Below the pieces are notes generated by a model. The model ran no database searches and was not told the DNA's origin. It saw only the letters and a list, made by a program, of their open reading frames with translations. DNA of 64,000 bases from Capsulimonadaceae bacterium (GTDB taxonomy: Bacteria; Armatimonadota; Armatimonadia; Armatimonadales; Capsulimonadaceae), in NCBI GenBank assembly GCA_031292625.1, contig JARLGU010000060.1, forward strand, positions 1-64,000, in the 5' to 3' direction. Made by a program: the position numbers and the translations under genes. The first letter of the stretch is position 1, and each line of letters opens with the position of its first letter. This document shows positions 8,637 to 50,717 of the stretch, one piece after another.

Positions 8637-10166
8637 TTAGCCATGCCCAATTTCAACTATGAGCAATTCGGCGGGAAGATTGAGAGTGATCGTGTTTGCT
8701 GTGGTGCGCACGGTGTAGGCCCTGGTCGGGCTGGGCTCCGGCGACTCGCTTGGCGCAAATACGCGGGTCTCGCATCGTTTGGCGAATTGAAGCGTGAGAG
8801 GAACCGCGGGCGGTTTTATGTCAGCGCCTTTCGTCGACGGACCGGCGTTCATGTAGACGCTTACATCGTTCCACAAGAGTAAGTAGTAAATGCCTCTTGA
8901 GCTCTGCAGAAGAAAATAATGCACGGTTTCCGGGACGGGGCTCATTGTCAAATCAAGGATGCCAGGTGCATAGACGGCGGCTGGGCTTGGATCCTTGAGG
9001 ATCGATATGAGGCTCTTTACCGCGAAATAGGCGGGCTTCTTCGATCCATCGTTTCTAAGGAATGCTCCGTAATGCCTCTCGTGATCCGCCATGTCCGGAT
9101 CAGGCTTGTCGTCGGCAAACTCGTAAACGTAGGTTCTGCTTCCCGTAGGCAACAGGCGGAATCCCTCGCAATACAGCAAAGGTACGTATATTCCGGCCGC
9201 CCTTTCGGAGACGCCCTGGTCGTCGTGGTACACATAATTCGTATCGTTGTGGTACCCGGTTTCGCCAACGTACACTGGCTTGTTCCCGGTGATCCACTCG
9301 GAGCCGGCGATAAAGCCGCCAGGAGACGCCCAAGTCAGCGCATGATTCCAGGAGTCGTCGTCGGCATGCGAGCCGCCGGGATAATAATGTCCGCCGCCGC
9401 AGTCGGCAATTCCCGCCGCATTCATGCTCGCGACGTCTGAGGCCGAATATCGCAGAAACGACGCTGGGTTCGCGAAAGGAACCGTGCAGACCTTGACGCC
9501 CTGTAGCGCGGGATCGCCTTTAACGATATGGTACAGATCCTCTGCCTCCTTTACTATCGCATGAGCGGGATCGGTAGTCGACTTTGGATCGAAGAACCCC
9601 CTATTCCAACCGTTTGTCGAGTCGTAGCTAGCGTCGAACTGCTGACCGCCAAGATTGTCATACTGGAAGTAGCGCTTGCTTCCGCCGCTGTCCTTCCACA
9701 TCAGGATATCGGGCTCGTTGACACACTCCACGGCGTCCACGCCCGGCACATAACGTTCAATGGCCGACTTTACGACGGGCGGGTACAGTGCGCCTGTGTG
9801 AATTTCGCCCATGCAGTCGACGCCAAGAAGTCCGGTGATCCCTAGCCGATCGTGCAACGTGTGGAAGTTGGCAATTTGTGTTGGGGACCACGATGAAACA
9901 CCATCCCGAATGTGCTTGATGCCAAGATCGGCAAGTGACGGATAAATGAGCGACGAAAATCCGGTTTGATAGATTGAGTTGGCCCAGTCGAGGTGAGTGT
10001 CCACTCCCATGCTGTCGACAAAAGATTGGGACTTGCGCGCCTGGAGCGGCGAAGCGTCCGCCGGGAACGCGCTTACTATTGCGATTGCGGTTACAGTGGC
10101 GACCGCGGACCTGATTAGCGCCCGCAATCCGTGTGAGCGCCCGTCAACGTTGTTGTTCAACTTCAT
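8637..10166 (-). CDS. Secreted glycosidase-like TIM-barrel protein (clan GH-A type)
   Basis: A 509-aa exported protein. A basic N-terminus precedes a hydrophobic segment (about 16-35) and an ASPLQ cleavage-like site. The barrel opens with MGVDTHLDW and has the clan-A pair: acid/base Glu in CVNEPD (about E151) and candidate nucleophile in VYVGETGYH (about E302). A C-terminal beta-rich region (about 390-509: YLLLWND, TLNLPAELLIVEIGHG) resembles the barrel-adjacent sandwich of GH39/GH30-like enzymes. The exact family is not certain. Start at ATG 10166 (GAGAGGC just upstream) rather than the longer frame. It follows the prepilin gene by 62 bp on the same strand, so the two are probably co-transcribed. 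Confidence 0.7.
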   Translation of the reverse strand: MKLNNNVDGRSHGLRALIRSAVATVTAIAIVSAFPADASPLQARKSQSFVDSMGVDTHLDWANSIYQTGFSSLIYPSLADLGIKHIRDGVSSWSPTQIANFHTLHDRLGITGLLGVDCMGEIHTGALYPPVVKSAIERYVPGVDAVECVNEPDILMWKDSGGSKRYFQYDNLGGQQFDASYDSTNGWNRGFFDPKSTTDPAHAIVKEAEDLYHIVKGDPALQGVKVCTVPFANPASFLRYSASDVASMNAAGIADCGGGHYYPGGSHADDDSWNHALTWASPGGFIAGSEWITGNKPVYVGETGYHNDTNYVYHDDQGVSERAAGIYVPLLYCEGFRLLPTGSRTYVYEFADDKPDPDMADHERHYGAFLRNDGSKKPAYFAVKSLISILKDPSPAAVYAPGILDLTMSPVPETVHYFLLQSSRGIYYLLLWNDVSVYMNAGPSTKGADIKPPAVPLTLQFAKRCETRVFAPSESPEPSPTRAYTVRTTANTITLNLPAELLIVEIGHG

Positions 10167-10228
10167 TGCCTCTCTTAATGCCGATTGCCCGCGATATGCG
10201 ACGCAAGTCTCCAACTCGGTGGTCGATT

Positions 10229-11071
10229 CTACTTGATGCTAAACGTCGCAGTCATCGCGAAACCGTCGATCTTGCCGCCTGTTCCAGCGGCCTTCCAACC
10301 GTCGGCCTGGCTATCCGAGACATTCGTCGCGTTTTGCCCCGGCGAGACAACATTGGGATTCAACCACTTGCAATGACAGTCCGCCATGATATAGTTTGCT
10401 CCGGTGTTGTGAACGGCCCCGTTCGTCGCGTAGAGATTTCCCGCCGCCGATGTCGCGCCGGGCAGCAGGCCGGTAGCGTACTGAAGGACGCCCGTGCCAG
10501 GCGTAGCCGAATACGTTCCGCCTTGCAGGGCGAGACCGTTGCCTGCCGGACTGCTGAGATAGTTGGTGGTCAATGTGTTGTTCCAACTGTCCTCATAGTA
10601 CTGAGTGATATCGACCGAGGTGCAACCCGTTACCTCAAACGCCAAGACCGTGGAAGAAGGCGCCGTGAACGACGATGCGGGATACGATACGTATGGCTGA
10701 ACATAGCTTGACGTGCCCCAGCCTGACTGATTGATGTTGAAGTTCAAGGCATAGGAAGCGCCCTTGCCCGTCGTCATATCGTCCGGACACCTGAACGTCT
10801 GAACGCTCTTGACGTACGGGTATATCTGGGCCGCCCAGCCGGCGACCGGGCTGTAGTAGTTGTTCCCTGGCGGGAATGTTTCATCGTAGTCCTGGAGATA
10901 TTGAGCCATTCCGAGGCCAATTTGCTTCTCATTGGCAAGGCAGGCCGTCTGCCGGGCTTTTTCTCGCGCCTTCGCGAACACTGGGAACAAAATAGCGGCT
11001 AATATAGCTATAATAGCGATAACTACTAGCAACTCAATAAGGGTAAATGCTGTTTGTCGAGTGTTCTTCAT
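10229..11071 (-). CDS. DUF1559 prepilin-type protein 1 (atypical)
   Basis: A 280-aa type IV pilin-like protein. The N-terminus is a class III signal (MKNTRQTA / FTLIELL) with Glu at +5 of the mature form and a long hydrophobic helix, then the AREKARQTACLANEKQIGLG segment typical of DUF1559 proteins. The usual Gly before the cleavage site is Ala here. The C-terminal motif is H-X9-DC (HNTGANYIMADC) where the family has H-X9-DG, and HCKW replaces HVKW, so two extra cysteines are present. It lies between a GntR/LacI-type regulator and a glycosidase on the same strand. AGGA lies about 8 nt before the ATG. The pilus or secretion role is inferred from the signal only. Confidence 0.85.
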   Translation of the reverse strand: MKNTRQTAFTLIELLVVIAIIAILAAILFPVFAKAREKARQTACLANEKQIGLGMAQYLQDYDETFPPGNNYYSPVAGWAAQIYPYVKSVQTFRCPDDMTTGKGASYALNFNINQSGWGTSSYVQPYVSYPASSFTAPSSTVLAFEVTGCTSVDITQYYEDSWNNTLTTNYLSSPAGNGLALQGGTYSATPGTGVLQYATGLLPGATSAAGNLYATNGAVHNTGANYIMADCHCKWLNPNVVSPGQNATNVSDSQADGWKAAGTGGKIDGFAMTATFSIK

Positions 11072-11253: not shown

Positions 11254-12432
11254 TCAAATTGATGCGAAAGACATGGACCGCCCGCTCAGGGATCCTGATG
11301 CGCACGAGCCCGGCGCCGCCGTCGACGTTCTTACGACCAACTGGACCGGAATTGCCGTGGTTGCCGGACCGAAATCCGTGCCCTGCAGCAAGTTGACTGC
11401 TCTTTTTACCGCGACCGCGCCCATCTGCCGCATCGGTATCGCGACGGTCGTAAGTCCTAGTTGCTCTGCGACCTGAATACCGTCGAAGCCGGCTACGGAA
11501 CAATCGTCGGGGACCCTAACGCCGGCGTCGCGAAAGAGCGTTAGCAGGGAGGCTGCCAGGTAGTCGTTGGCGCAAAATACCGCCGTGGGCGAGAGCTGTT
11601 TGATCTGCTCCAGGAGCGCTTGCCCGCTGGCTCCGCGTATGCCGTCCCATTCAAGGAAAATAGGATGTTCGTCGCCGACTTCCATAACCGCGGCGCGCCA
11701 AGTATTGGCGCGCTCATTGATGGAGGTTGTGCTGACAGCCTGCGTTATGCTCAAAAAAGCAATCTTCCGGTGCCCAAGTGACAAGAGGTGTTGCATCATG
11801 TCGGCCGCGCCCTGGCTGTTGTCGCCCATGATTGACGGCAATTTCCGGCCGAAAACATCTAGCTCGTCATCGACGATTACGGTGCGATCCAAGTCGATGC
11901 CGGTCGCTCGAATGAATTTGCCGGGAGCCCTGACCAGCAGCAAACAAGACACTGGCTTGTACTCGGCGAGTAAACCCCGCGCCATCTCCAAACTGTGCGC
12001 ATCGCTGGCGGCGTGCCCGGAAATGACGTGGTAGCCCAAACGATGCGCCTCCTGAAGGACTCCCTGGTAGATTTCTCGGAAGAACTCGTCGTCATAAACG
12101 TAGTCCTCGCGAAAGATCGCAAGCAGGTTGCCTTGCGACTTGGGCGTGGACTGTTGCATCTGCCGGACGAACGTGCCCTTGCCGGGGATCCGATTGATGA
12201 CCCCCTCGTTTTCCAGATCCTTCAGCGCGCGCCGGATAGTGATACGGCTCACGCCGTACGTCTGGATCAGCTCGCGTTCGGAGCCGATGCTCTCGCCTGA
12301 GTCGAAAGACGCGGACGAGAGCCGATCGACAAGGTCCGCCTTGACCTTTTCGAAAAGCGCCATCTGCGGTTTTGTTTCAGAACCGTTCAACACCGTTCTC
12401 CCCGCCTCGCTTTTGCCTTCCGTGGTACGCAT
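11254..12432 (-). CDS. GntR/LacI hybrid sugar regulator (AraR-like)
   Basis: A 392-aa repressor-type protein. Residues about 24-92 form a GntR winged helix (GSERELIQTYGVSRITIRRAL, NEGVINRIPGKGTFVRQ). The rest is a LacI/periplasmic-binding-like effector domain (LGHRKIAFLSI, AVFCANDYLAASLLTLFRDAGVRVPDDCSVAGFDG, LTTVAIPMRQMGAVAVKRAVNLL). This arrangement is that of Bacillus AraR. It heads a minus-strand set with the prepilin (182 bp downstream) and the glycosidase, so a sugar derived from that enzyme's substrate is the likely effector. Transcription starts almost at the ATG. The promoter overlaps an imperfect palindrome, suggesting autoregulation. Confidence 0.85.
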   Translation of the reverse strand: MRTTEGKSEAGRTVLNGSETKPQMALFEKVKADLVDRLSSASFDSGESIGSERELIQTYGVSRITIRRALKDLENEGVINRIPGKGTFVRQMQQSTPKSQGNLLAIFREDYVYDDEFFREIYQGVLQEAHRLGYHVISGHAASDAHSLEMARGLLAEYKPVSCLLLVRAPGKFIRATGIDLDRTVIVDDELDVFGRKLPSIMGDNSQGAADMMQHLLSLGHRKIAFLSITQAVSTTSINERANTWRAAVMEVGDEHPIFLEWDGIRGASGQALLEQIKQLSPTAVFCANDYLAASLLTLFRDAGVRVPDDCSVAGFDGIQVAEQLGLTTVAIPMRQMGAVAVKRAVNLLQGTDFGPATTAIPVQLVVRTSTAAPGSCASGSLSGRSMSFASI

Positions 12433-12468
12433 GACTGGTATTATATCAGGTCAATTGCAGGATGTCAA
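12432..12468 (-). promoter_or_regulatory. Consensus sigma-70 promoter with overlapping palindrome for the GntR/LacI gene
   Basis: On the minus strand TTGACA (12468-12463), a 17-nt spacer and TATAAT (12445-12440) match the housekeeping consensus perfectly. Only 7 nt (ACCAGTC) separate the -10 box from ATG 12432, so the mRNA should be leaderless. The -10 box sits inside an imperfect inverted repeat, TGAC..G....C..GTCA (12432-12453), a plausible GntR-type operator for self-repression. Confidence 0.8.
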
Positions 12469-13087: not shown

Positions 13088-14779
13088 TTAATTGGCGCGA
13101 TACAGCAGAAGCCGGGCGGAGGGGGCGTCGGCGATCAGAAGCCATGGACCGCGCGCGGCGATTGCCGTTGCTTGGCCAACATCCGGGAATTTCGTGGGAA
13201 GCGGCCGGCCGGTAGTTGCGTCGAAGGACGTTACGACTCCGCCCTTGTCAAGCGCGAAGACGCGAGTTCGCGTCGCGGCCAGTGAGAGGCAGTCGCCTGA
13301 CGCGGGAACGGACCAGAGCGGCGTATAGACGCCCCGAGGCTCGCGGCGAAATGCCGCGACGGTGGTGGCGGAGGCCACGAAAAGCGCCGTTTCGTCGTCG
13401 CTAGCAGCTATCGCCTGGATCGCCGTTGGCGCTCCGCTAGGCAAGGGCGCAGGATGCAGCGCGACGGAATCGCCGGTTTCGGATTCGAGTATCGCGCCGT
13501 CATTCAGCGCCCAGAGGATAGTGTCGCCGCCCGCGATTGCGCTTAACGAGTGAAGAGGGGCCGCATTCTTATCCTCGATTTTGACCCATGGAGTTTGTCC
13601 CCACGAAGTCCGGTCGGGATAGAACCGGTAAAGCTGACTGCTTTTCTTCTCGGCGACGATAAAGCACTGCCCGTTCGACACAATCCCAGCGGGCGACGTG
13701 TCCCAGCGTTCGGCCGTGCGCCAGGCGTCGTCTCCGTTGCAGCGGAATGGCTCATCCGGAAGATCGTCCAGCATCAGGCGAACCATTCGGCCCGCGCCGC
13801 TAGCGGCAAGCACGGTTCCATCGGCCGCGATTGCCAGCAGGCTCACGTTGGGCAGACCGCCGATGCGTACAGGGCAGGGGCGGCCTGTGCGATCCGCCCG
13901 CATTAAGCCTTGCGATGTGGCGAGCCAGTAGCCGCCGTCACTAGCCGGGGCGATGGCGTTGTGTCTGTTCGACCACGGGACATTCAAGGTTGGCGCATTC
14001 GGGTCGAGCTCGCCGGGCGCGAGTGAAAATGCGACGTCGCCTGTTGCGGCCGCCCATGCAACGCCGCGTACCGACGCGATCCCCAAGGCGTTGCAATTTC
14101 GTGGCCAGTCGCCGGTCGTCACCTGAGTGCCGCTCGCGTTGAAGCGGTAGATGTGGAGATCGGCGTAGCCGCTGGCGGCAAGCAGGTCGCCGGATTCAGG
14201 TTCGATCCCGATGCACTGATACTGCCATCCGCTCCTTTCGGGCATTGGAAGCGTGATGAGCACCTGTCCGTCGCTCGCTCCGCCGCATGCGAGCACGGTA
14301 TTCCGGATCAGCGCGAAGACCGGCGCTTTTGCGGCAAAGCCTGTTGCGCCCGGCGGGGACGCCGTGATAAAGCGCGGCGTGCCGGTGAGTTGCGCAAACC
14401 TGACGGCGGTTGCCGCTGGATCGGTCATTGAGACGCGATAGATCCGCTTGTCGCCGCACGCCGCATAGATCGATTGGCCATCGGACGCAATTGGCGTGTA
14501 CGCAATTCCGGACGGGAGCGTCACCTCGCGCACGAGAGCCAAGCCGCCGCCGGGACGTTCGCGGTAGTGATGGAGCTTATTACCTGCGCCGGTCCAAACG
14601 TCGGCGCCGTATGCCACGACGCCTTCGGTTTCCTGATACGGCGCTGCCATTTCGGGAGCGGCCTGACTCTGCCCGAGGACGCCAACCAGCGCCGGCGGCT
14701 GCTGTGCGTGCGCGCAACAACCTACGGCAGCGGCAAGCGCGAGGAGCGTTTCTCGGAAGCGATGCGGCTTTGTTGTCAT
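13088..14779 (-). CDS. Secreted beta-propeller-like protein
   Basis: A 563-aa exported protein with an N-terminal signal peptide (ETLLALAAAVGCCAHAQ, cleavage near residue 24). The mature part is a run of about 40-50-residue beta-rich repeats with recurring glycine/aspartate and aromatic residues (DGGYWLATSQGLMRADRTG; GGDTILWALNDGAILESETG), as in WD40- or NHL-like propellers. No catalytic motif is recognised. Its ATG overlaps the stop of the upstream glycosidase (ATGA at 14779-14776), so the two are translationally coupled. A role in binding or processing the same polysaccharide is inferred from context. In-frame sequence upstream of 14779 is inside the neighbour and is not counted. Confidence 0.65.
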   Translation of the reverse strand: MTTKPHRFRETLLALAAAVGCCAHAQQPPALVGVLGQSQAAPEMAAPYQETEGVVAYGADVWTGAGNKLHHYRERPGGGLALVREVTLPSGIAYTPIASDGQSIYAACGDKRIYRVSMTDPAATAVRFAQLTGTPRFITASPPGATGFAAKAPVFALIRNTVLACGGASDGQVLITLPMPERSGWQYQCIGIEPESGDLLAASGYADLHIYRFNASGTQVTTGDWPRNCNALGIASVRGVAWAAATGDVAFSLAPGELDPNAPTLNVPWSNRHNAIAPASDGGYWLATSQGLMRADRTGRPCPVRIGGLPNVSLLAIAADGTVLAASGAGRMVRLMLDDLPDEPFRCNGDDAWRTAERWDTSPAGIVSNGQCFIVAEKKSSQLYRFYPDRTSWGQTPWVKIEDKNAAPLHSLSAIAGGDTILWALNDGAILESETGDSVALHPAPLPSGAPTAIQAIAASDDETALFVASATTVAAFRREPRGVYTPLWSVPASGDCLSLAATRTRVFALDKGGVVTSFDATTGRPLPTKFPDVGQATAIAARGPWLLIADAPSARLLLYRAN

Positions 14780-17718
14780 GGTTTGCCTGTCAGGACGATC
14801 TGTCCGAACGCCGCCGGATCGTGCGGCCAGTCGGCGCAGAAGAAACCGAGCGCCGCCGGATCGGGTTGCTTTTCGCGGTTCATGTCGTTGATTGTCGCGG
14901 CGACGCCAATTCGGTCTCCGGCCCTTGGGGCGGAAGGCGCGCCGAGAGTGCTCCATGGAATCGCCATCTCGTAGCGGAGGCCAGAGGCGCTTTTGACGAC
15001 CGCAAGCTGCAACTGCGATGGTGTGAGTTGGCCGGTGGGCAGCTTGCCGGGATCATAAGAAATGGCTCGATCGGCCTCGGGACCGTTCGGCGTGAGCGCT
15101 ACGTTAATTTGAGTGTACCGGCGGCTTTGCTGATCGGCGAAATCGTTGCCGCTCGATACGTCCGCCTTGTCGGGATCGAGGTTGAAGCCCAATTGCACAC
15201 AGTCGCCTTTCCACATATCCCCGCCAGTATAGGGCTGCATGAAGACCGGGTCGGTAACGTCGAACGCCGCGTAAAGTGCCTTGCTGTCCCAGGCGTACTT
15301 GACACTCGCGGCAAGGTGCCCGTTGTAGAATTGCGGGCTGCGCACGATTGCGCTTCGTCCTGAAACGCTCGTTCCTTGCACGCTGTCCCACTTGCCGAGG
15401 TTGCCATCGATTACTGGCGGCGACGAGAACTGAGGCGCGGCAAGGAAATTGAACGACACAACCTTCTCGGATCGCGAGCCGCCGGGAATAGAAACGCTCG
15501 CTTCGACATTGTATTTGCGCGCCTGGATAACGTCGACGCCTGGCAGCGCCGCGATCACAACGGATGTCGCCGCCGCGGCTATGGGGACCGTGAGCGTCTT
15601 CCTGCTTCCGGGGACGCCGGTAACGCGGACGTTGAGCGTACCGGTGAGCGTCGCTCGGGTTGCGTTTGAGATTGCGACGCGCAATGCCGGTTCGCCGTGC
15701 TCGAATGCCGGACCGACGGAATCGATCGAGAGCGGCGCTTGAAGGACAAGCTGGGTTCCGGCTGCGCCGATGGACGATCCCCCGGCGCTCAGGGTGAGCT
15801 TAAGCGGGTATGTCCCTGCGACGCAGTCGCGCGGCGTCTTGAGCGCAAACTGAACCGTCTGCTTCGATGCGTCTAGCGCAACCTGCTTTTCGATTGGCGT
15901 GACGTTCAGCCGCGGATCGGCAACGAGACGAACCGTTCCCGTCGTCCGCAGCTTGCTCGCGGAAGTCACCGACGCCTTTACGGAGACGATTTCGCCAGGA
16001 AACGCGGTGAGCCGATCGGCTTGCGCGGCAATTGGGTGCGCCGCGGTTCGTCCCCAGAGCGCGGGTGATACGCCTTTTATGTAGATCGGTTCCTGTGACA
16101 GCGTCACCTCCACATTGCCGTCCGGCGAATTCGCGGTCGAAGGGTTGCCCATCCAATCGTAGAGCGCGACCTGCTTGACGCCTACGGGGAGCGACAGCTT
16201 GCGCGGCTTATCGCCTGCGTCCCACAGCACAAGGATTACGTCATCGCCGCGCTGGAAGACGTAGCCTGTCGTGTCGCCGCCAAGCCATTCGATCGCGCCC
16301 GCCGTCGGGTGCCCGTCGATCAGGTACGTCATCGCGGAGTAGGCTGGAACGACGGGGCGCGGGGCGAGCTTATCCGAGCCACACCGGATCCTGGGATTGC
16401 AGCCGTAGTAATAGTCGTAGCCTGCGCCCGCGACGTAGAACGCGAAGTTGAATCCGAAACCTTCGCCCGCGGTGATCAGGCTGTCCCGGATGTCGTAGCG
16501 CGCCTGGGATAACTCGATCTCGCTTCCTGACTGGTCGCGTAACGCAAATCCCTGCTCCGTTCCGTAAAGCGGCAGATCCTTGCCCGCGTATTGACGGATG
16601 ACGTCCTTGAGTGCCCGGTAGTACTGGACTAGCCCCGTCTTTTCCGGCGGGTTCTGGCAGTAGGGATGGATGGTGACGCCGTCAACGTATTTGGCAAGCC
16701 CGGCCTTAAAGATGTCCTCGTTCCACCTCACGGCATCGCGGCTAATGCCGTCGCCGGTCGGACCGAGAACGAACGCCTTCGGGTCCGCAGCGTGGAGTGC
16801 TGGATAAGCAATTCGATAGATCTCCACGAGCTGATCGTTTGTGCCCTTAAAGCCCCACGGTGCGCAAGGCTCCCAGGTGATCTGGTAATAGTGCTTCTGG
16901 CGTTTCGGGAAATTCTGTGAGAATGCCTTGCCGATTTCCGTGCAATAATCTCGCCATGCGGTCTTGCCGGCTTCGCTAAGCGCTCCCTGATCCGTCCCGA
17001 TCGTTCCCGGGATGGCTGCCCACGTAGGCGTCCCATTCAGACACGGCAGGTCGTAGGTTTGCCACGGCTTGCCGTTGTACCGGACCTCGTCCACTTCTGG
17101 GGACAGCGGCGGATAGATTTTCCCCTGCAACCCGGCTTTTGCCCGGTCTTCCGCAAATTGTCCGGCATGGTCCTTTTCGTTTCGCCCCCATTCGTATCCG
17201 GCCAGCACCCAACGGACGCCAAGATACGGGATCACCGGAGCCTTGCTGCTGAACCCGCCTTGCATGCCAAACATGGAAGCGTTTTCGCCGTAATCGTTCC
17301 GCTTCGCAGGATCGGGGACGATTGCGTAGGTGAGGCATCCTGCGGGACGGTTGCCAAGCGCCGGGAGCGTCGCGCCGTCAGCCAACGCCGCGCAGACACG
17401 ATAGAAGCCCAGCCGGTTGGGCGTCGCAGAGTATTCGCCGCTCCAATTACCGGACGCGTCCGCGTGAACGGCCAGGACCGTCTGGCTGCGGATGGCTTCG
17501 TACTCATCCTTGACGGCGATGCGCAGGGTTGTGTCCGATGCAGGCGGAAGACCTGTTGCGTTGAAGACGATTTTGACCGTTTCGCCAAGAGCATAGGTGC
17601 TGTGCTCGGGCCGCGATGTGTCGGCGGACAGAGTAGAAGCGTAGACGACCGGCAAAATGCCGAGCAGCAAGGCGGCCGCGCACGCCGATTTCAATGTCAG
17701 GGAATTCGTTTGTATCAT
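14776..17718 (-). CDS. Large secreted clan GH-A glycosidase with C-terminal CBM9 domain
   Basis: A 980-aa exported enzyme. Signal peptide at about 1-27 (LLLGILPVVYA). An Ig-like N-terminal domain (30-135) precedes a TIM barrel (about 140-480) with acid/base Glu in YQITWEPC (about E283) and candidate nucleophile in LYGTEQGF (about E388), resembling GH39 or GH5-like enzymes. Two beta-sandwich or NEW3-like domains follow (500-780). The last about 200 residues (PPVIDGNLGKWDS ... ALYAAFDVTDP ... YEMAIPWSTLG) are a CBM9-type carbohydrate-binding module. It starts 10 bp after the prepilin stop and overlaps the propeller gene, within the LacI operon. Substrate unknown; a plant-type glycan is likely. 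Confidence 0.75.
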   Translation of the reverse strand: MIQTNSLTLKSACAAALLLGILPVVYASTLSADTSRPEHSTYALGETVKIVFNATGLPPASDTTLRIAVKDEYEAIRSQTVLAVHADASGNWSGEYSATPNRLGFYRVCAALADGATLPALGNRPAGCLTYAIVPDPAKRNDYGENASMFGMQGGFSSKAPVIPYLGVRWVLAGYEWGRNEKDHAGQFAEDRAKAGLQGKIYPPLSPEVDEVRYNGKPWQTYDLPCLNGTPTWAAIPGTIGTDQGALSEAGKTAWRDYCTEIGKAFSQNFPKRQKHYYQITWEPCAPWGFKGTNDQLVEIYRIAYPALHAADPKAFVLGPTGDGISRDAVRWNEDIFKAGLAKYVDGVTIHPYCQNPPEKTGLVQYYRALKDVIRQYAGKDLPLYGTEQGFALRDQSGSEIELSQARYDIRDSLITAGEGFGFNFAFYVAGAGYDYYYGCNPRIRCGSDKLAPRPVVPAYSAMTYLIDGHPTAGAIEWLGGDTTGYVFQRGDDVILVLWDAGDKPRKLSLPVGVKQVALYDWMGNPSTANSPDGNVEVTLSQEPIYIKGVSPALWGRTAAHPIAAQADRLTAFPGEIVSVKASVTSASKLRTTGTVRLVADPRLNVTPIEKQVALDASKQTVQFALKTPRDCVAGTYPLKLTLSAGGSSIGAAGTQLVLQAPLSIDSVGPAFEHGEPALRVAISNATRATLTGTLNVRVTGVPGSRKTLTVPIAAAATSVVIAALPGVDVIQARKYNVEASVSIPGGSRSEKVVSFNFLAAPQFSSPPVIDGNLGKWDSVQGTSVSGRSAIVRSPQFYNGHLAASVKYAWDSKALYAAFDVTDPVFMQPYTGGDMWKGDCVQLGFNLDPDKADVSSGNDFADQQSRRYTQINVALTPNGPEADRAISYDPGKLPTGQLTPSQLQLAVVKSASGLRYEMAIPWSTLGAPSAPRAGDRIGVAATINDMNREKQPDPAALGFFCADWPHDPAAFGQIVLTGKP

Positions 17719-17728: not shown

Positions 17729-18484
17729 CTAGTTGCCGTTGTTATAGTGGACGCGCGAGAAGTACCACAAGATCGGCGTGCCGTTGTGACTGGCGTTTGG
17801 TACGCTTCGCGTCAGAGTCTGTATTTGCATCCATTTGACGTGGCCGTCCATGAACACGAAATTGGCTCCGCTGGAGTGCCGGAAGGAGTACTGCCCTTGT
17901 GCGTTGCTGCCGCCGGTTACGCCTCCAAGAGTTGGCGGGGTGCTGGTTGTGTTGAATATCTGGCTAATGACCTGATCCGAGTTGGAGCCATTCTGCTGAG
18001 CATCGCCGGTGAAAATGGTGTCTGCCGGCATGTCGAACTGAGCGAGCGTGGCCGGAGGCGCCCAGGCATAGTAGAGGGCGTAGTTGGCATCCGCCCAGTA
18101 GATCGCGTTGTAGGCGTATGTCATCGGCAGGGAGTTTGTGCAAGGCGGGGTCGTCTGGTCGTTTTGCGAGCAGAACACTTGGCCGTCCGTGGCGCTCGGA
18201 CAGAGCCAAATCCCCGACGACTTGTCTTGCGCATTGCTGATATACGGCATGAGAAACGTGCCCCAGGTCGTATTGTTTGCGCCGCCCGTAATAAGGACGG
18301 TGCCGTCGTAGTCCTCGAAATATTCGTGCAACGCCAGTCCGATCTGCTTCTCGTTGCTGGCGCACGCCGACTGGCGCGCCTTTTCGCGTGCCGTAGCGAA
18401 GACTGGAAACAGTATAGCTGCTAAAATAGCAATAATAGCTATTACAACGAGTAGTTCGATTAATGTGAAACCATTCTTCTTCAT
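17729..18484 (-). CDS. DUF1559 prepilin-type protein 2
   Basis: A 251-aa pilin-like protein with a canonical class III leader (MKKNG / FTLIELL), a long hydrophobic helix and the [23 protein letters not shown] stretch. The C-terminal third contains a perfect H-X9-DG motif ([12 protein letters not shown]) followed by HVKW. The start has AAGGAGA 6 nt upstream. It begins 14 bp after the LacI stop and ends 10 bp before the glycosidase, so it lies in the middle of one transcription unit. Known family: DUF1559 proteins are abundant in Planctomycetes and Armatimonadetes; their function is not established. Confidence 0.9.
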
Positions 18485-19587: not shown

Positions 19588-19647
19588 ATCAATACCTATT
19601 GATATGCATCATAACACACGTGGCCGCGCATGTCAATACCTATTGAC
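19586..19647 (-). promoter_or_regulatory. Promoter with two LacI-type operators
   Basis: Operator O1 (19586-19605) is ATATCAATA-CC-TATTGATAT with perfect 9-bp arms and overlaps the start codon. O2 (19632-19647) is GTCAATA-CC-TATTGAC with perfect 7-bp arms and overlaps the -35 box. On the minus strand TTGACA (19636-19631), 17 nt and TATGAT (19613-19608) form the promoter. Operator centres are 44 bp apart. The shared core TCAATACCTATTGA was not noticed elsewhere in the window. Confidence 0.85.
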
Positions 19648-44121: not shown

Positions 44122-44169
44122 TTGACACACAGGTGTGTGCGTGCTAATATATCTTTACACACAGGTGTG
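44122..44169 (+). promoter_or_regulatory. Promoter with two LacI-type operators
   Basis: TTGACA (44122-44127), a 17-nt spacer and TAATAT (44145-44150). Operator 1 (44125-44138) is ACACAC-AG-GTGTGT with perfect 6-bp arms, overlapping the -35 box. Operator 2 (44158-44169) is CACAC-AG-GTGTG, just downstream of the expected start site. The centres are about 32 bp apart. GGTGAG precedes ATG 44179. Confidence 0.85.
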
Positions 44170-44178: not shown

Positions 44179-45195
44179 ATGAGCGTAAGTATTACAGAAA
44201 TTGCAAAGCGGCTGAATGTCTCCCATTCCACGGTTTCGCGGGTCTTAAACGGTCGCGGTAAACAGTATGCCTCCGAGCAAACGGCGCGGCAGATCCGCGA
44301 CCTGGCGGTTGAGCTGAACTATCGGCCAAACCGGCTTGCGAGCGGTCTCTTGCGCGGCAAGACAAATCTGATCGGCGTCGCAATGGGCCGCTGCAACAGT
44401 TCGTACGCTGGGGGGATCCTCGAAGGCGTACGCGCTGCATGCGAGGACATCGGCTATCAGGTTCTCCTTGGACGCGCCAAGAACGACGAACTAAGCGAGA
44501 GCAAGCAAGTTCGGTTGTTGCTTGACTACAAGGTAGACGGATTAATCTGCGTCGCGGATGGCTGGGGACACGAGCGGATTCTTCACTGGCTTGACGAAGT
44601 CGTGATGCGGGACCTTCCTTGCGCCGTGATCGACTCGCGCGCCTATGCCGATAGAGTCGATTGCGTGGTGACCGACGATGTCGCGGGAGCCGCAATGGCG
44701 ACCCGGCATCTGATCGAACTGGGGCATCGGAGAATAGCCCATGTCGGAGGCGGCGATATTCGCACGACGTCCACGGACCGCCGCAACGGTTACCTGCGCG
44801 CTCTGGCCGATGCGGGCATCGCAAGCGACCCTGCGCTAATACAGGGCTGCGCGTACTCAAAGGAGTCCGCAACCGCGGCGATTCAAACCATTCTTGAGGT
44901 TCGCCCGCTTCCCACCGCTGTATTTGTCGCGAGCGACGGCGATGCGTATTGGGTCTGGCAAACGCTGAATGATCGCGGAATACGGGTACCCGACGATATC
45001 GCGCTCGTGGGATACGGAAATCTCGACGTAGGCCTTGGCCTCGGCCTGACGACGGTCGATCAAGCGCCTCAGACGCTCGGGGCGATGGCCGTGAAGAGGG
45101 TTCTCAATCGGATTGACCGGCCTGGCGCGCCTCACGAGGTTGTGGAGTTGAACACGCAATTGATTGTACGGCGAAGTTCAGCCGCGCGTGCGTAG
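44179..45195 (+). CDS. LacI-family transcriptional regulator 2
   Basis: A 338-aa repressor. The N-terminal HTH and hinge (VSITEIAKRLNVSHSTVSRVLNG ... LAVELNYRPNRLASGLLRGKT) are canonical, followed by the sugar-binding domain (NLIGVAMGRCNSSYAGGILEG, VVTDDVAGAAMATRHLIELGHRRIAHVGG, VPDDIALVGYGNLDVG). First gene of a four-gene plus-strand operon with gaps of 18, 11 and 17 bp to the prepilin, BNR and GH95 genes. Two copies of its probable operator flank its own promoter. The effector sugar is probably a product of GH95 action. Confidence 0.92.
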   Translation: MSVSITEIAKRLNVSHSTVSRVLNGRGKQYASEQTARQIRDLAVELNYRPNRLASGLLRGKTNLIGVAMGRCNSSYAGGILEGVRAACEDIGYQVLLGRAKNDELSESKQVRLLLDYKVDGLICVADGWGHERILHWLDEVVMRDLPCAVIDSRAYADRVDCVVTDDVAGAAMATRHLIELGHRRIAHVGGGDIRTTSTDRRNGYLRALADAGIASDPALIQGCAYSKESATAAIQTILEVRPLPTAVFVASDGDAYWVWQTLNDRGIRVPDDIALVGYGNLDVGLGLGLTTVDQAPQTLGAMAVKRVLNRIDRPGAPHEVVELNTQLIVRRSSAARA

Positions 45196-45213: not shown

Positions 45214-46089
45214 ATGAAGCGCATTGGGTTTACATTGATAGAATTATTAATTGTAATTGCTATTATTGCAATAATAGCGGCGATATTATTTCCCGTGTTC
45301 GCCACCGCTCGCGAGAAGGCTCGACAATCGTCTTGTGCGAGCAACGAAAAGCAAATGGGAATCGCGTTCGCCCAGTACACTCAGGACTACGACGAAGTCT
45401 ATCCGTTCGCGTGTGGAGACAATACGGCAGACCGTGCGTGGGATATGGAGCTCCAACCTTACTTCAATCTGAAGGTCAATTCCACCAATGTAGCCATATC
45501 GATCGAGGCTTGTCCGGACGATCAGATTGCCCGAGGCTTTAGCGGCACGTCGCCCTTGAGTACGCGCAGTTATGCGATGGCTGGCGGGGGGCAGGCTGGT
45601 TACGGATGCTCGACCGGTGCGTGCTGCGCCGGCATGGACATCGCATCGTCGTTTACGAACGATCCAGACGGCATCGGGAAGTACGATTATTCCGCAGGGC
45701 GTCTCGTTTCGCAGGTTCCCGAGCCTGGCGGCACCATCCTCGTCGCGGAATGGCCGTCGCTGGGCAATCACATTAGCGGACCGGGATCGAGCGCGACGAC
45801 TGATCGCCCGGTCACCGGCGCAAATTCGGATACGAACGGAGACAATGCTCAATACGGCCAAGATTGCGCGGTGATTGTCTCCGACCTCTGCTCGATCATC
45901 CAGCAGCCTGTTCACAACGGCGGATGGAATTATCTATTTGCCGATGGCCACGTGAGATGGCTCAAGCCTGAACAGACCATCGGTATGGGATTGAATGGCT
46001 CGGGTACGAGCCTTAGATCCAATGGTCAGTCCTACACGTGCTCAATGAGCAGCCCGTGCGGGATGTGGACGATCACGGCTGGAGACTAG
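45214..46089 (+). CDS. DUF1559 prepilin-type protein 3
   Basis: A 291-aa pilin-like protein with leader MKRIG / FTLIELL, hydrophobic helix [18 protein letters not shown] and the [23 protein letters not shown] segment. The C-terminal part has a perfect H-X9-DG motif ([12 protein letters not shown]) followed by HVRW. It also has several extra cysteines in the middle (CSTGACCAG) and near the end. AAAGGAGA lies 8 nt before the ATG. It lies between LacI 2 and the BNR protein, mirroring the position of prepilin 2 in its operon. Confidence 0.9.
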
Positions 46090-46100
46090 AAGACAACTAA

Positions 46101-48398
46101 ATGGCATGGACTATGTTCGTAAGAGCGCTGCTCATCCTCCTTGCGCTGGTTCTCCTCCCGTGCTCTTGTTGCATGGCCGGATCCGCGCTTCCGACCGCCT
46201 CCGCGACGATTGGATTTGAAACGCCGGGTCAATGGCATTCCGTTCCCCAGGATGTGATCGCGGTAAATGCAATACATCCTCAATATCTCTGGTGCCAGCA
46301 TGTGCACAAAATGCCTCTCGCGCTACTGGATACAGGGCTAACGCCTTCCACGGATCATGTCAAAGAGGGGCGCTATTCCGGGCTCTGGAAGGATCATGAG
46401 AAATATCCGACGATCGCCTGTTGGGACATTCCGCACGACTGGAGCGCTTACAACTCATTTGAGATTTCGATCTACTCTGAGCGCGCGACTGGCGAGACGG
46501 TGACGCTGGGCGCGCTTTCCGACAGCGCGGCAACGCCCTGGAAGGATTACTATCTGCATGATTTCGTCGTCGATTGGCGCGGCTGGAAGACGTTGACGTT
46601 TCCGTTCAGCTCGTTTCAGTCCTTTGAAAAGCCGGCGGGCTGGAATAAGATCGACGGCCTCTTTTTCTTTACAAAGATCTTTCGTCATCAACCCAACCCC
46701 TATACCGAACTTTCACTGGACACGATCCATTTGCGGACGGGTCAGGTGTCGGCGCAAGCGGCTCAACCCAATCCTACCAATGGTTTCACTTACCTGAGTA
46801 GATATGAGGATCAACAACAGCCTCTCAACCTGCCGTATCCCGAGACCGACCACGAAGGCGCGTTTACGAGCCCGATCAACCAGCTCTGCTACTTTCAAGC
46901 TGAGCGAGAGCAGTTCAAGTACTTCCCGCATTTCAACGCAGGGTACGTGAGCTTTGATCCTAGCGGCAAGGCGTATATCAACGCGGGAGAGACCATCGAG
47001 TGGTTGGATGCGAGCGGCAAGTGGACGGCGTCCGATATCAAGTCCGTGCTCGTCGATTGGGCCCGGAAGCAGGGCTGGAAGGGGTTGGCGAATGGATGGG
47101 GGCCTCAGGGCGCAGAGCCCATGATACGCTTCGATCGCGATGGGGACGCCTACGCGCTCGAAGTGGTCGAGCCGTTGAACGCTCAAGGACAGCGTTTCGA
47201 CTGGAAAACGCGGGCGACTCTTCTGCTGCATTCGCACGACCGCATGAAGACGTGGCAGGCGTACAAGCTGCCTGATCGTGTCGCATCGTTCGAGAAGCTC
47301 GACGGACATAATCAGGAATGCCTTAATCGTCCTCCCGTGATCCTGCTCGGAGACTACAAATACTTTGGCGACGCCGATCAGGCGGGATATATCCTGATTC
47401 CCGAGAAGCAAGCCGATGGTTCTCTCACTCTTCCCAAACCTGTCGCTTATGCAGCACACTGCATGGATGTAAACTATCATTCCGGCGACGCCAATGTCGC
47501 GATAACCCATCATGGGAAAGTGACGATCGTCTTCGGTTGGTGCCCGCAATCGGCCGCTCAGACCGGCGACTGGCGATCGACGATGCCGTCGATTCCGGAC
47601 GGCCATCCGGGCTTGACGGCATCGTTTCCCATGATCGCAAAGGGCGCGACGACTCTTCATTACGGCAAGGACGGCGTTCCAACCTATGTCGTCGATTACG
47701 ACATCGCATCGCGCACTGTTAGCAAGCCCATCTATGTCGGCTCCGGCGGCGTGGGGCTGGACGCGCATAACTGGCCCGCCCTTACCATCGACAGCCGGGG
47801 CATATTGTACGTGATCATGAACGGGCACCATGCCCCGGTGAATTACACGCATACGCTCAGACCCGACGACATCTCAGAGTGGAGCACGCCGCAATATCTG
47901 CTTGTGAATACACAATCTCCAAACCTATCCTACGCGACGCTCACGTGCGGCTCCGACGACACCCTGTATACCGTTCATCGAAGCACGAAAGACGCCTATG
48001 ATAACCACCTGGGCTTATATCGTAAACGTGCTGGACAAGAATGGGAAGAGGAACGAAAACTGGTCGTGCCGTTCAAGGACATGTACAAGGTATGGTATCA
48101 GCGGATGACGTACGACACAAAGCGCAATCGCCTTTTTCTCACGTATTTCGCCAATGGAGGGCAGGAATGGTATACGTGGGATATGTTCGATTTCTACACG
48201 TTCATCTGGCCGGATCGCGAGAGATTAATGGACGTGAATATCGGCAAAGCAGGGGTTAACGATGCTGGTCCGGCTGTTCCCGGCGGATTTTCCGGCGGCT
48301 TCTACGATCCGGGCGCAACGGAAATTACGATGCTTGTTTCCGACGATGAAGCGCAAAGCTGGCGCTTGGCGACGACCGCGGATTTTGCGCGTAAATAG
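46101..48398 (+). CDS. Secreted BNR-repeat propeller protein with N-terminal glycan-binding-like domain
   Basis: A 765-aa exported protein with signal peptide (LLILLALVLLPCSCCMAG). Residues about 30-235 form a beta-sandwich resembling galactose-binding or CBM11-like domains (NSFEISIYSERATGETVTLGA; WRGWKTLTFPFSSFQ). The rest resembles a BNR_4-type propeller (EPMIRFDRDGDAYALEV, NRPPVILLGDYKYFG, GLDAHNWPALTIDSRGILYVIMNGHH). Proteins of this type include polysaccharide lyases such as those acting on ulvan, so lyase activity is possible but not shown by a motif here. It lies 11 bp after the prepilin stop and 17 bp before the GH95 gene. Confidence 0.7.
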   Translation: MAWTMFVRALLILLALVLLPCSCCMAGSALPTASATIGFETPGQWHSVPQDVIAVNAIHPQYLWCQHVHKMPLALLDTGLTPSTDHVKEGRYSGLWKDHEKYPTIACWDIPHDWSAYNSFEISIYSERATGETVTLGALSDSAATPWKDYYLHDFVVDWRGWKTLTFPFSSFQSFEKPAGWNKIDGLFFFTKIFRHQPNPYTELSLDTIHLRTGQVSAQAAQPNPTNGFTYLSRYEDQQQPLNLPYPETDHEGAFTSPINQLCYFQAEREQFKYFPHFNAGYVSFDPSGKAYINAGETIEWLDASGKWTASDIKSVLVDWARKQGWKGLANGWGPQGAEPMIRFDRDGDAYALEVVEPLNAQGQRFDWKTRATLLLHSHDRMKTWQAYKLPDRVASFEKLDGHNQECLNRPPVILLGDYKYFGDADQAGYILIPEKQADGSLTLPKPVAYAAHCMDVNYHSGDANVAITHHGKVTIVFGWCPQSAAQTGDWRSTMPSIPDGHPGLTASFPMIAKGATTLHYGKDGVPTYVVDYDIASRTVSKPIYVGSGGVGLDAHNWPALTIDSRGILYVIMNGHHAPVNYTHTLRPDDISEWSTPQYLLVNTQSPNLSYATLTCGSDDTLYTVHRSTKDAYDNHLGLYRKRAGQEWEEERKLVVPFKDMYKVWYQRMTYDTKRNRLFLTYFANGGQEWYTWDMFDFYTFIWPDRERLMDVNIGKAGVNDAGPAVPGGFSGGFYDPGATEITMLVSDDEAQSWRLATTADFARK

Positions 48399-48415
48399 CG
48401 CGGAAGGAGTTTCGT

Positions 48416-50707
48416 TTGCGACGACGTGATTTTCTGGTTCAAGGCGCCGCGGCGGCGGCTTGTCTGACGCTGTTAGGTCAGGATGGGGCGCGCATGGATG
48501 CGTACGCGGCGGTTTTGGAGAATTCCGCCGGCGATGGACCGGATTGGCAGCGCTTCTTGGCTCGTCAGGACCCGATTTGGGAGCGGCTTCCCCGTAATTG
48601 GTGGGAAGCGCCTTTTCTCGGCAATGGCATGCTGGGAACGACGATCAGGCAGGACGGCGCAAAGTCGATGCGGTGGGACATCGATCGGTGTGACGTCCAG
48701 GAACATCGCCCGGTCTCCGACGGAGGCGCGCTCTGGGCCAGGACGAGACTCCCGATCGGATACTTTTCGCTCGTTACCGTTGGGACGATTGTAAGCGGAA
48801 CGATGCGTTTGGATCTTTGGAACGCGGAGGCAACCGGGGAAATCGTCACCGATCGCGGTTCCATCAAGTTTCGCAGTTTCGTGCACTCCGGCGACATGGT
48901 CATTCTTACCGCGGTCTCGCGTTCTGGAGGCGAGGGAGAAGCGTGTTTCGAGTGGCATGCGCTGGAAGCAATCTGCCCGCGCGTTCAGTTTCATCCGCTC
49001 CCCGCCGGTTACCAGGCTAACCCTCCATTTACCCTCGCTCACTCGGGCGAGGTGCAGACCTGTCATCAGAGCCTCGTGCACGGCGGCGAGACGACGGTTG
49101 CCTGGAACGAGGCCAGCAGCGGTGCGAGTACGACCCTCTTTGTGAGCGTCGCGCATACATACCCAAGCGCCGGATCGGACGCGATCGCAATCGACGCCGT
49201 GAATCAGGCGCGCAAGCAGGATCTTGACGCCTTCGCTGCATCGCACCGCGCCTGGTGGCATCAGTTTTATCCAGCGAGCTTTCTGTCAATTCCCGACCCC
49301 TATTGGGAAAGCTTCTACTGGATCCAGATGTACAAAATGGCCTCCGCAACCCGGGAGGACCGTGCGTTGATCGACAACCAGGGACCGTGGCTGCAACCGA
49401 CTCCATGGCCCGGAGCCTGGTGGAACTTAAATGTCCAGCTTACGTATTGGCCGATGGGACCGGCGAACCATCCTGAGTTGAGCGAATCCCTGACACGGCA
49501 TCTCGAAGACAACGTGACGAATCTGATCGCCAATGTTCCGCAGCCTTACGCAAGCGACTCGGCCGCCATTAGCACGGCATCCGGCCAAGACCTGCGTTCC
49601 GTCGCAGGGCTTCCAGGCACGGGGGGCGAGGTCGCCAATCTGACGTGGGCGCTTCAGAATGCCTGGGAGCATTACAGGCTAACACTCGACGACAAGCGCT
49701 TACGATCCTTTCTTTATCCCTTGCTGCAGCGATCGGTCAACTACAGCCTTCACTTTCTGCAGCCGGACGAACAAGGCGTGCTCCATATGCCGAACACGTA
49801 CTCGCCCGAGTACGGCGCCGGTCCGGACTGTACGTATACTCTAGCGCTGCTCCGATGGGGGCTGCACACGCTCATCAAGTGTTCCGTGCGATTGGGAGTC
49901 GACGAGACGCTTCGGCAATCATGGAGGGTAACGCTCGCCAATCTTGCTCCGTATCCGACAGACGATACTGGATACTTAATCGCGCGAGGCGTGCCCCTGG
50001 CGCATGGACACCGGCACTTTTCGCACCTGCTGCAAGTTTTTCCACTGCATATCGTACACGCGGGGCAAGTAGGCGCCGCGGAGTTGGTTGAAAAGACTGT
50101 CGATCACTGGCAGAGTATGGGCGAGAGGCTCGGGTACTCGTTCACCGGCGCGTCGCTGATGTCGTCCGCGTTCGGTCGCGGCAACTCATCGCTCGATTAT
50201 CTGAACGGGCTGAAGCACTTCCTCCAGGCGAACACTCTCTACAAGGAGGCGGGACCGGTGATCGAAACGCCACTGTCAGCGGCTCGGGCGATCCAGGAAA
50301 TGCTCATCCAAAGCTGGGCTAGCGGCGAGGAAATGGATGGGCTGATACGGATCTTCCCGGCGGTTCCCGATTCCTGGGCCGACGCGGCATTTAGCGATAT
50401 GCGGGCGGAGGGCGCGTTTCTCATAAGCGCCGTACGCAAAAACGGAGTAACCGAGTTCGTTCGCGTTAAGAGCCTCGAGGGCGCGCCGTGCCGCATCTGT
50501 CCAGCGCTGCAAGCGCCGGTATCCGCAAGCGGGGCGTTAAACGGGATACTGACCGAGGCGAGCGACGGAGTATTTTCCTTGCCGCTCAAAAAAGGCGAGG
50601 AGGTTGTACTGTATACCAGAGGCAATAGGCCGTCGACCTCGCGCCCGCCGGTCTGCTCAAACGGAGGCGGCGCCAACATTTGGGGGCTCAAAGCCACGGC
50701 CAATTGA
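48416..50707 (+). CDS. GH95-type alpha-L-fucosidase/galactosidase, Tat-exported
   Basis: A 763-aa enzyme. The N-terminus MRRRDFLVQGAAAAACL has the twin-arginine pattern, so export is probably by Tat. The N-terminal sandwich starts WWEAPFLGNGMLGTTI, as in GH95. The alpha/alpha barrel includes GPWLQPTPWPGAWWNLNVQLTYWP, NTYSPEYGAGPDCTYT, HGHRHFSHLLQVFPLH and a C-terminal EMLIQSWASGEEMDGLIRIFPAVPD. Specificity among fucosidase and galactosidase members cannot be decided. The start is TTG at 48416 with GAAGGAG 6 nt upstream. Last gene of the LacI 2 operon; its TGA lies in the loop of a terminator hairpin. Confidence 0.85.
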   Translation: MRRRDFLVQGAAAAACLTLLGQDGARMDAYAAVLENSAGDGPDWQRFLARQDPIWERLPRNWWEAPFLGNGMLGTTIRQDGAKSMRWDIDRCDVQEHRPVSDGGALWARTRLPIGYFSLVTVGTIVSGTMRLDLWNAEATGEIVTDRGSIKFRSFVHSGDMVILTAVSRSGGEGEACFEWHALEAICPRVQFHPLPAGYQANPPFTLAHSGEVQTCHQSLVHGGETTVAWNEASSGASTTLFVSVAHTYPSAGSDAIAIDAVNQARKQDLDAFAASHRAWWHQFYPASFLSIPDPYWESFYWIQMYKMASATREDRALIDNQGPWLQPTPWPGAWWNLNVQLTYWPMGPANHPELSESLTRHLEDNVTNLIANVPQPYASDSAAISTASGQDLRSVAGLPGTGGEVANLTWALQNAWEHYRLTLDDKRLRSFLYPLLQRSVNYSLHFLQPDEQGVLHMPNTYSPEYGAGPDCTYTLALLRWGLHTLIKCSVRLGVDETLRQSWRVTLANLAPYPTDDTGYLIARGVPLAHGHRHFSHLLQVFPLHIVHAGQVGAAELVEKTVDHWQSMGERLGYSFTGASLMSSAFGRGNSSLDYLNGLKHFLQANTLYKEAGPVIETPLSAARAIQEMLIQSWASGEEMDGLIRIFPAVPDSWADAAFSDMRAEGAFLISAVRKNGVTEFVRVKSLEGAPCRICPALQAPVSASGALNGILTEASDGVFSLPLKKGEEVVLYTRGNRPSTSRPPVCSNGGGANIWGLKATAN

Positions 50708-50717
50708 CCGTGGCTTT
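50690..50717. terminator. Bidirectional terminator containing the GH95 stop
   Basis: AAAGCCACGG (50690-50699) pairs perfectly with CCGTGGCTTT (50708-50717); the 8-nt loop holds the GH95 TGA (50705-50707). A/T tracts flank both arms, so it can act on both strands. It separates the operon from the convergent FAD oxidoreductase gene. Confidence 0.75.

Follow-up and report, generated by a model that had tools for sequence, protein, structure and literature searches.

In the genome of a Capsulimonadaceae bacterium (phylum Armatimonadota; NCBI GenBank assembly GCA_031292625.1), genes for LacI-type, sugar-type regulators are directly followed, far more often than chance would allow, by a gene for a pilin-like protein of the DUF1559 family. 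This association is real and strong, is organised like autoregulated operons and is spread across the phylum. The genome holds dozens of such small operons, made up of a sugar-type switch, its own pilin-like protein and often an exported protein that handles sugar chains. Three of them, cassettes (a), (b) and (c), lie in the stretch of 64,000 nucleotides with which this analysis began (contig JARLGU010000060.1, positions 1 to 64,000; hereafter the window; Table 1). An earlier note on the window had described the three-cassette plan, and Pfam recovers a regulator and a DUF1559 prepilin in each cassette at the positions given there. Judged from the sequences, sugar-induced, cassette-specific pilins for glycan capture are the best single reading, to which we give a probability of about 0.5; the bacterium may thus choose its surface fibres to match the surrounding sugars.

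Coupling of regulators and prepilins in the source genome

The source genome comprises 5.77 Mb in 65 contigs. The family search scored the best 150 of 410 DUF1559 candidates and the best 150 of 217 candidates for Peripla_BP_3 (LacI-type regulators), and all 150 prepilins and all 150 regulators exceed the family cut-offs. A scored DUF1559 match lies on the same strand and at most 400 nt downstream of 61 of the 150 scored regulators, where about 0.8 would be expected, and within the same distance none of the 150 has such a match upstream or in antisense orientation. The figure of 61 is an undercount because it draws on 150 of the 410 DUF1559 candidates; the prepilins of cassettes (b) and (c) are themselves absent from that set. 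Among the 89 regulators without a scored partner, a prepilin was the next gene in 7 of 20 sampled, and among the 89 DUF1559 genes without one, a regulator lies upstream on the same strand in 7 of 20 sampled and in antisense orientation in 3. By extrapolation, pairs take in about 61% of the scored regulators and the same share of the scored prepilins; 89 distinct pairs were seen directly in the match lists and the fetched stretches.

Genes were called by script in 100 stretches, drawn from 40 of the 61 pairs, 20 of the 89 unpaired regulators, 20 of the 89 unpaired DUF1559 genes and 20 random 15-kb stretches, the last from contigs already known to carry a match. The 827 genes called include 115 prepilins and 101 regulators. 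In the random stretches, a same-strand prepilin directly follows 10 of 16 regulators (2 at a stretch edge), and 2000 permutations of the gene labels yielded 0.97 such cases on average and never more than 5. A further regulator of the 16 (at locus L159) precedes a gene that is DUF1559 by Pfam and was missed by the prepilin pattern. In the whole sample, which is enriched for pairs, 69 of 101 regulators precede a prepilin (5 at an edge), and the gap, counted up to a point some 12 residues ahead of the signal motif, is between −29 and 79 nt in 65 of the 69 pairs. The pattern is incomplete: behind supposedly prepilin-less regulators, 2 of 10 next genes scanned proved to be DUF1559 by Pfam, so the pair counts are too low. 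Chance clustering of the two gene families is ruled out by the 61 pairs against about 0.8 expected, together with the permutations. The earlier note had named a lack of excess of DUF1559 genes beside LacI or carbohydrate-active enzyme (CAZyme) genes as the outcome that would speak against it; what the source genome showed was a clear excess. The presence of three DUF1559 genes in 64 kb is in itself ordinary, because the genome holds up to about 400.

At one locus (L100, positions 1750-3822, plus strand, on contig C44), regulator and prepilin share a single uninterrupted frame of 680 codons, with an internal AGAGGAG and a GTG ahead of the prepilin signal; this is the only such case among the loci examined. 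Two DUF1559 prepilins (L135, 2861-3742, and L136, 2688-3581, both on the minus strand) lack a LacI-type neighbour and have a divergent AraC regulator instead.

Promoters and candidate operators

A sigma-70 promoter matching the consensus at 10 or more of 12 positions within 220 nt upstream was found before 57 of the 65 regulators of pairs in the fetched sample. By the same measure it was found before 2 of 66 of their prepilins, none of 47 third genes (the genes after the prepilin), 25 of 488 other genes and none of 65 shuffled sequences. Since the promoter stands before the regulator and almost never before the genes that follow, the regulator appears to form a single autoregulated operon with its prepilin and the third gene. 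This class of promoter is a property of either gene set and is not peculiar to pairs: it also occurs before 14 of 27 regulators without a prepilin and 15 of 42 prepilins without a regulator.

The best palindrome directly after the −10 element scores at least 7 in 13 of the 57 cassettes. Scores as high occur in about 0% of shuffled sequences, in 4% of the 25 other genes with such a promoter and in none of the 14 prepilin-less regulators. Among the cassettes, 56 of the 57 best palindromes are distinct. These results suggest autoregulated operons, with a private candidate operator in at least part of the cassettes; those of cassettes (b) and (c) are given in Table 1. The promoter of cassette (a) ends 7 nt ahead of the annotated regulator start (12432-12440), which probably means that translation begins at an internal ATG or that the mRNA has no leader.

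Third genes in the source genome

We examined 48 distinct genes that stand first behind a prepilin. According to Pfam, with 25 of 34 families listed, they carry CBM_4_9 (6 genes), GH5, CBM9 and GH42 (5 each), GH10 (3), heparinase II/III, Laminin_G_3 and GH2 (2 each), and in single cases GH71, GH16, an agarase carbohydrate-binding module (CBM) and BNR_4 (GH denotes glycoside hydrolase families). One further third gene is a DUF1559 gene overlooked by the pattern. Among 48 random control genes, whose products have about half the length, the 25 of 96 families listed include a single GH127 and a single fucosidase. A heuristic for Sec-type signals was positive for 42 of the 48 third genes and 18 of the 48 controls. 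Thus, the third genes of this genome mostly encode proteins exported by this heuristic and are rich in glycoside-hydrolase and carbohydrate-binding domains. They fall into 30 clusters and so are mostly unrelated to one another, which agrees with the earlier view that the enzymes differ while the prepilin keeps its place.

For the window, that view of the partner enzymes was upheld in part. The BNR_4 and GH95 proteins of cassette (c) and the CBM9 domain in cassette (b) were recovered, the last without the GH-A domain that had been assigned to it. The "clan-A glycosidase" of (a) and the "propeller" of (b) are labels given by eye only, as Pfam matched neither protein.

Other genomes of the phylum and beyond

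DUF1559 was found in all 81 sampled genomes of the phylum, the source genome being the richest by candidates, and Peripla_BP_3 regulators were found in 72 of the 81, again most numerous in the source genome. When the best-scoring regulator of each of 29 other genomes of the phylum was inspected, a prepilin lay directly downstream in 19 (3 not evaluable). These 19 pairs come from 10 families, with 6 from one genus, and 16 of them have a promoter of at least 10/12. In three genomes of the same family as the source, a prepilin follows 3 of 10, 5 of 10 and 2 of 10 regulators. The looser pattern used for other genomes admits prepilins outside DUF1559, which account for 2 of the 19 (the other 17 being DUF1559-type) and for all 5 in the same-family genome G040. 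The claim that the prepilin holds a constant second place, behind a sugar-type regulator, in what looks like an operon is therefore borne out both by the genome-wide excess and by other genomes of the phylum.

A CAZyme as the constant third partner across the phylum was rejected: the 16 third open reading frames (ORFs) obtained from the 19 pairs include no glycoside hydrolase by Pfam, and 3 pairs gave no third ORF. Eight of the 16 have no Pfam match, 3 are TPR proteins, and one each is BNR-type, beta-helix, DUF6785, halogenase-like and a second DUF1559. The choice of these ORFs was crude (the longest on the same strand beginning within 500 nt), and a missing Pfam match leaves an enzyme possible, as the third gene of cassette (a) also matches nothing. 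Because the third gene elsewhere is mostly no recognisable CAZyme, the conserved core consists of promoter, regulator and prepilin.

Relatives of the source prepilins were found in Capsulimonas, Chthonomonas, Abditibacterium and Fimbriimonadales records. In counts that rest on the best 80 among the matches listed, a LacI-type gene stands directly upstream of the prepilin at 2 of 4 Lentisphaerae, 1 of 2 Abditibacterium-type and 1 of 3 Chthonomonas-type loci, and at 1 of 2 loci of one further bacterial genome. None was found at the evaluable loci of Capsulimonas (0/2), Armatimonadetes (0/4), Fimbriimonadales (0/1), Zipacnadia (0/2) and WS1 (0/1). On this sample of the best 80, coupling in all phyla that bear DUF1559 was rejected, with 0 of 28 evaluable loci in Verrucomicrobia and 0 of 18 in Planctomycetes. 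In three Lentisphaerae genomes, 2 of 6, 2 of 6 and 0 of 2 regulators have a prepilin, so that two of the three genomes show coupling. An uncultured Victivallis genome of 3.6 Mb (G081, the source of locus L305) has 110 Peripla_BP_3 matches, some of them beside prepilins, and represents a second, distant expansion of LacI-type regulators.

Sequence, structure and co-variation of the prepilins

In all three window prepilins, PF07596 (DUF1559) and PF07963 (N_methyl) both score above the curated cut-off, and the class III signal peptide model TIGR02532 gives 28.0, 35.9 and 26.7 bits (cut-off 16.3). The C-terminal H-X9-DG motif (TIGR04294) is matched in (b) and (c) and not in (a), where D-C replaces D-G; a wider pattern of this type fits 95 of 106 prepilins of the source genome. 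An ATFSxx-type C-terminal motif is present in 42 of the 106 (e.g., in that of 10229-11071) and may form the final strand or act as a signal for sorting.

The prepilin of cassette (a) was modelled from 93 sequences with a predicted local distance difference test (pLDDT) score of 88.2 and a predicted template modelling (pTM) score of 0.85; this model replaces an earlier one of 37 sequences (pLDDT 66.2). In it, one long N-terminal helix precedes a small globular domain of mixed structure. Across the 93 aligned sequences the helix is nearly invariant and much of the globular part highly variable; the invariance of helix and signal is partly a matter of choice, as a pattern selected the sequences. 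All 11 structural matches listed are type IV pilins, the best being Thermus thermophilus PilA4 (Z 4.9, root-mean-square deviation 3.6, 122 aligned). No lectin or carbohydrate-binding fold is among the matches listed, which is uninformative either way.

Regulator similarity and prepilin similarity are uncorrelated over 60 pairs (Mantel r 0.006; −0.008 when only the globular part is compared), and the nearest neighbours of regulator and prepilin agree in 2 of 60 cases. A recent duplication of whole units was therefore rejected as the main cause of the pattern, with power limited by a median regulator identity of 20%. The related explanation, in which the pattern arose as a side effect when one ancestral regulator-prepilin unit was copied and selection did not hold the two genes together, is in our view very improbable. 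Both families are hugely expanded in the source genome, and saturated divergence at that median identity could mask old joint duplications. However, the closest regulators (61, 59 and 54% identical) precede prepilins of ordinary similarity while the adjacency persists, and 10 other families of the phylum show the same gene order and promoter.

The globular domains of prepilins are somewhat more alike where the third genes are homologous: identity is 0.332 over 34 such pairs of cassettes versus 0.295 over all 1275 pairs, and 78 of 5000 permutations were as high. The same comparison for regulators gives 0.221 versus 0.213, and 872 of 5000 permutations reached the former value. The test is a single one, modest and with exceptions, and covers the 51 cassettes that have a third gene. 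It suggests that prepilin and third gene are weakly linked and that the control head is apparently swapped freely. To this extent the earlier proposal of one dedicated prepilin for each glycan system gains some support.

Alternatively, the prepilins could be adhesins or filament variants that track the sugar environment, for attachment or biofilm, and do not bind the glycan of their own cassette. This would fit both a conserved core elsewhere that includes no enzyme and the lack of co-divergence between regulator and prepilin. It would not lead one to expect the strong bias of the source-genome third genes towards exported proteins with glycan domains, nor the greater likeness of prepilins beside homologous third genes, and we regard it as rather unlikely.

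Filament machinery and transporters

The source genome has three secretins and, among 10 T2SSE matches, five strong ATPases of the PilB/GspE type; one secretin and one ATPase match lie about 0.8 kb apart on contig C20. Such machinery, along with the co-encoded exported proteins and the weak link between prepilin and third gene, could also serve a cassette-specific pseudopilin similar to those of type II secretion systems (T2SS), which would cap or tune a pseudopilus that pushes the enzyme of the same operon across the outer membrane. Known T2SS use a single pseudopilin set for many substrates, which counts against this explanation. Moreover, 14 of the 69 units lack a third gene in the same direction within 300 nt, the third ORF elsewhere is often a TPR, beta-helix or DUF6785 protein or nothing recognisable, and the model for the T2SS major pseudopilin GspG (TIGR01710) gives the window prepilins 27.3, 33.2 and 29.1 bits, below its equivalog cut-off of 88.85. 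We consider the pseudopilin explanation unlikely. The same 14 units and the 16 third ORFs elsewhere also count against a strict form of the earlier suggestion, in which each prepilin would export only the enzyme encoded beside it.

Genome-wide, Pfam finds 12 ATP-binding cassette (ABC) permease matches and 3 TonB receptors, none of either in the window or its cassettes, and 34 major facilitator superfamily (MFS) matches, some of which are fragments of a single gene. No SusD-family protein is among the scanned proteins of the window cassettes; the genome was not searched for SusD. In LacI-controlled sugar operons, an autoregulated LacI-type repressor stands ahead of sugar-use genes that come with ABC importers. 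The cassettes appear to share this layout, but their constant second gene is a prepilin, and those of the window have no ABC importer. In the SusC/SusD polysaccharide-utilization loci of Bacteroidetes, many of which occur in one genome, each locus combines a regulator, an envelope protein that handles glycans and exported enzymes. The cassettes match these in having a regulator, a candidate envelope protein, exported enzymes and many loci, but differ in regulator class, and those of the window have no TonB receptor. With at least 150 LacI-type regulators against 12 ABC permeases and 3 TonB receptors, neither plan covers most cassettes.

The family name SBP_bac_10 suggests another role, in which the prepilin would stay unpolymerised as a membrane-anchored periplasmic solute-binding or scaffold protein. 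PF07596 is called a solute-binding protein family in the part of PMC2754498 drawn on here, and no other binding protein was found in the window cassettes or among the third-gene families listed. We nevertheless judge this role improbable: just 12 ABC permease matches are there for such proteins to serve, all three window prepilins carry the class III signal, and the model is pilin-like.

Discussion

Starting from the gene order and its excess, the position of the promoters, the palindromes, the heuristic export signals and the scarcity of ABC permeases and TonB receptors, all observed, we propose the following course of events for cassette-specific pilins in glycan capture. Each cassette would be transcribed as one autoregulated, sugar-responsive operon under a near-consensus sigma-70 promoter. 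Each would encode a repressor of LacI or GntR/LacI type and at least one DUF1559 prepilin, to which the source species usually adds an exported protein that may handle glycans, and many would have their own operator beside the −10 element. The repressor would let go once the cell takes up sugar set free from a particular glycan, and the matching prepilin and enzyme would be produced together. One of the few type IV filament machines that the cassettes share would then process and assemble the prepilin, whose variable globular domain would enable a surface or periplasmic filament to bind glycan, so that the cell could hold or draw in the polymer that the co-expressed enzyme cuts. It is possible, although on balance doubtful, that the pilins do the work of SusD or of ABC binding proteins, with a shared filament machine loaded according to the glycans present.

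Several observations weigh against this proposal. The fold match of the prepilin is weak (a Z score of 4.9 is below the level for a safe claim of fold) and points to no carbohydrate site, and Foldseek returned 4 matches with E values up to 10, none below 0.001. The most similar third genes (1546 bits) accompany prepilins of ordinary similarity (0.32). Cassette (a) has no palindrome after its −10 element, and the score is below 7 in 44 of the 57 cassettes. A few third genes of the source genome, among them one for a pyrophosphatase, clearly have nothing to do with glycans; the other single cases that do not fit are an AraC regulator, a phage-type ART-PolyVal/PBECR1 protein, a CT398-like coiled coil and the DUF1559 gene mentioned above. 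Outside the source genome the third gene is mostly no CAZyme by Pfam. When the best DUF1559 locus of each of the 29 other genomes of the phylum is taken as the starting point, a LacI-type gene is directly upstream in 2 (8 could not be placed by the pattern). In three Planctomycetes genomes, 0 of 16 regulators are coupled to a prepilin, and it is only from Planctomycetes that dextran-binding fibres are known.

Those fibres are a close precedent for the binding step proposed here. Gold-labelled dextran was seen on pili-like fibres of two Planctomycetes, Planctopirus and Gemmata, and the polymer also in the periplasm (PMC5394234). They are pilus-like and bind polysaccharide, as we propose for the cassette pilins, but the part of that article drawn on names no fibre protein, and the phylum is a different one. 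DUF1559/SBP_bac_10 proteins form a large paralogue family in Planctomycetes, of unknown or guessed role, with 68-91 such paralogues in the genomes described in the relevant parts of four articles (PMC8567305, PMC2754498, PMC10632474, PMC4807772). According to the section concerned of PMC8567305, at least 41 genes per genome of Planctomycetales carry a prepilin motif, and most of them also SBP_bac_10. These proteins have the same Pfam domain as the cassette prepilins and, in the same section, the same pairing with N_methyl. In contrast, the descriptions in those parts mention no operonic sugar regulator, and coupling was seen here at 0 of 18 evaluable Planctomycetes loci and 0 of 16 regulators. 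We found no account of regulator-DUF1559 coupling in the open-licence literature that was searched.

Few paralogue families of Planctomycetes are larger than DUF1559, to which the parts of the literature cited here assign no function. Its link to sugar-type operons offers a direct handle: inducers can be predicted, the substrate on which the neighbouring enzyme acts is the predicted ligand, and simple genetic tests can be devised. If our proposal is true, this large family gains a function, and type IV filaments become a nutrient-capture device with a switchable repertoire in a genome poor in ABC permeases and TonB receptors.

Features of the window

The coordinates of the three cassettes are collected in Table 1. 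In cassette (a), 182 nt separate regulator and prepilin, and 62 nt the prepilin and the next gene. The tight spacing that had been noted for the other two was confirmed, with gaps of 14 and 10 nt followed by a 4-nt overlap in (b), and of 18, 11 and 17 nt in (c).

Table 1. Genes, promoters and candidate operators of the three window cassettes
Cassette	Feature	Position	Strand	Evidence
(a)	Sigma-70 promoter TTGACA-17-TATAAT, 12/12, extended TG	12440..12468	-	Consensus match
(a)	GntR-HTH (helix-turn-helix)/Peripla_BP_3 hybrid regulator	11254..12432	-	PF00392, PF13377
(a)	DUF1559 prepilin, class III signal	10229..11071	-	Pfam, TIGR02532, structure model
(a)	509-aa protein, glycosidase by eye only	8637..10166	-	No Pfam match
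(b)	Sigma-70 promoter TTGACA-17-TATGAT, 11/12, extended TG	19608..19636	-	Consensus match
(b)	Perfect palindrome, 10-nt arms, 2-nt centre, candidate private operator	19585..19606	-	Directly after -10, ends in annotated ATG
(b)	LacI-family regulator	18499..19587	-	PF00356, PF13377
(b)	DUF1559 prepilin with H-X9-DG	17729..18484	-	TIGR04294, 29.9 bits (cut-off 19)
(b)	980-aa protein, C-terminal CBM9 domain	14776..17718	-	PF06452
(b)	563-aa protein, propeller by eye only	13088..14779	-	No Pfam match
(c)	Sigma-70 promoter TTGACA-17-TAATAT, 10/12, extended TG	44122..44150	+	Consensus match
(c)	Dyad CACACAGGTGTG, first copy, candidate operator	44126..44137	+	Inside promoter spacer
(c)	Dyad CACACAGGTGTG, second identical 12-nt copy, candidate operator	44158..44169	+	32 nt on, directly after -10
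(c)	LacI-family regulator, LacI + Peripla_BP_3	44179..45195	+	Pfam
(c)	DUF1559 prepilin with H-X9-DG	45214..46089	+	TIGR04294, 26.1 bits
(c)	BNR_4 protein	46101..48398	+	PF15892
(c)	GH95 enzyme	48416..50707	+	PF22124, PF21307

Elsewhere in the window, a gene of the glycine-transporter family (PF03458) is present twice at 37571-40316, one copy being truncated. The repeat spans 300 nt at 97% identity, with the copies 2032 nt apart and a methyltransferase gene (38791-39423) in between; this gene has a low GC content at third codon positions (0.38) and looks like a foreign gene that arrived with the duplication. Direct repeats at 894-1259 and 2849-3213, 1.95 kb apart and 96-97% identical, are Rhs-like by eye only, and neither of the two proteins scanned there has a Pfam match. 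A protein encoded at 55284-55943 on the minus strand contains HNH_repeat domains of the kind associated with homing endonucleases.

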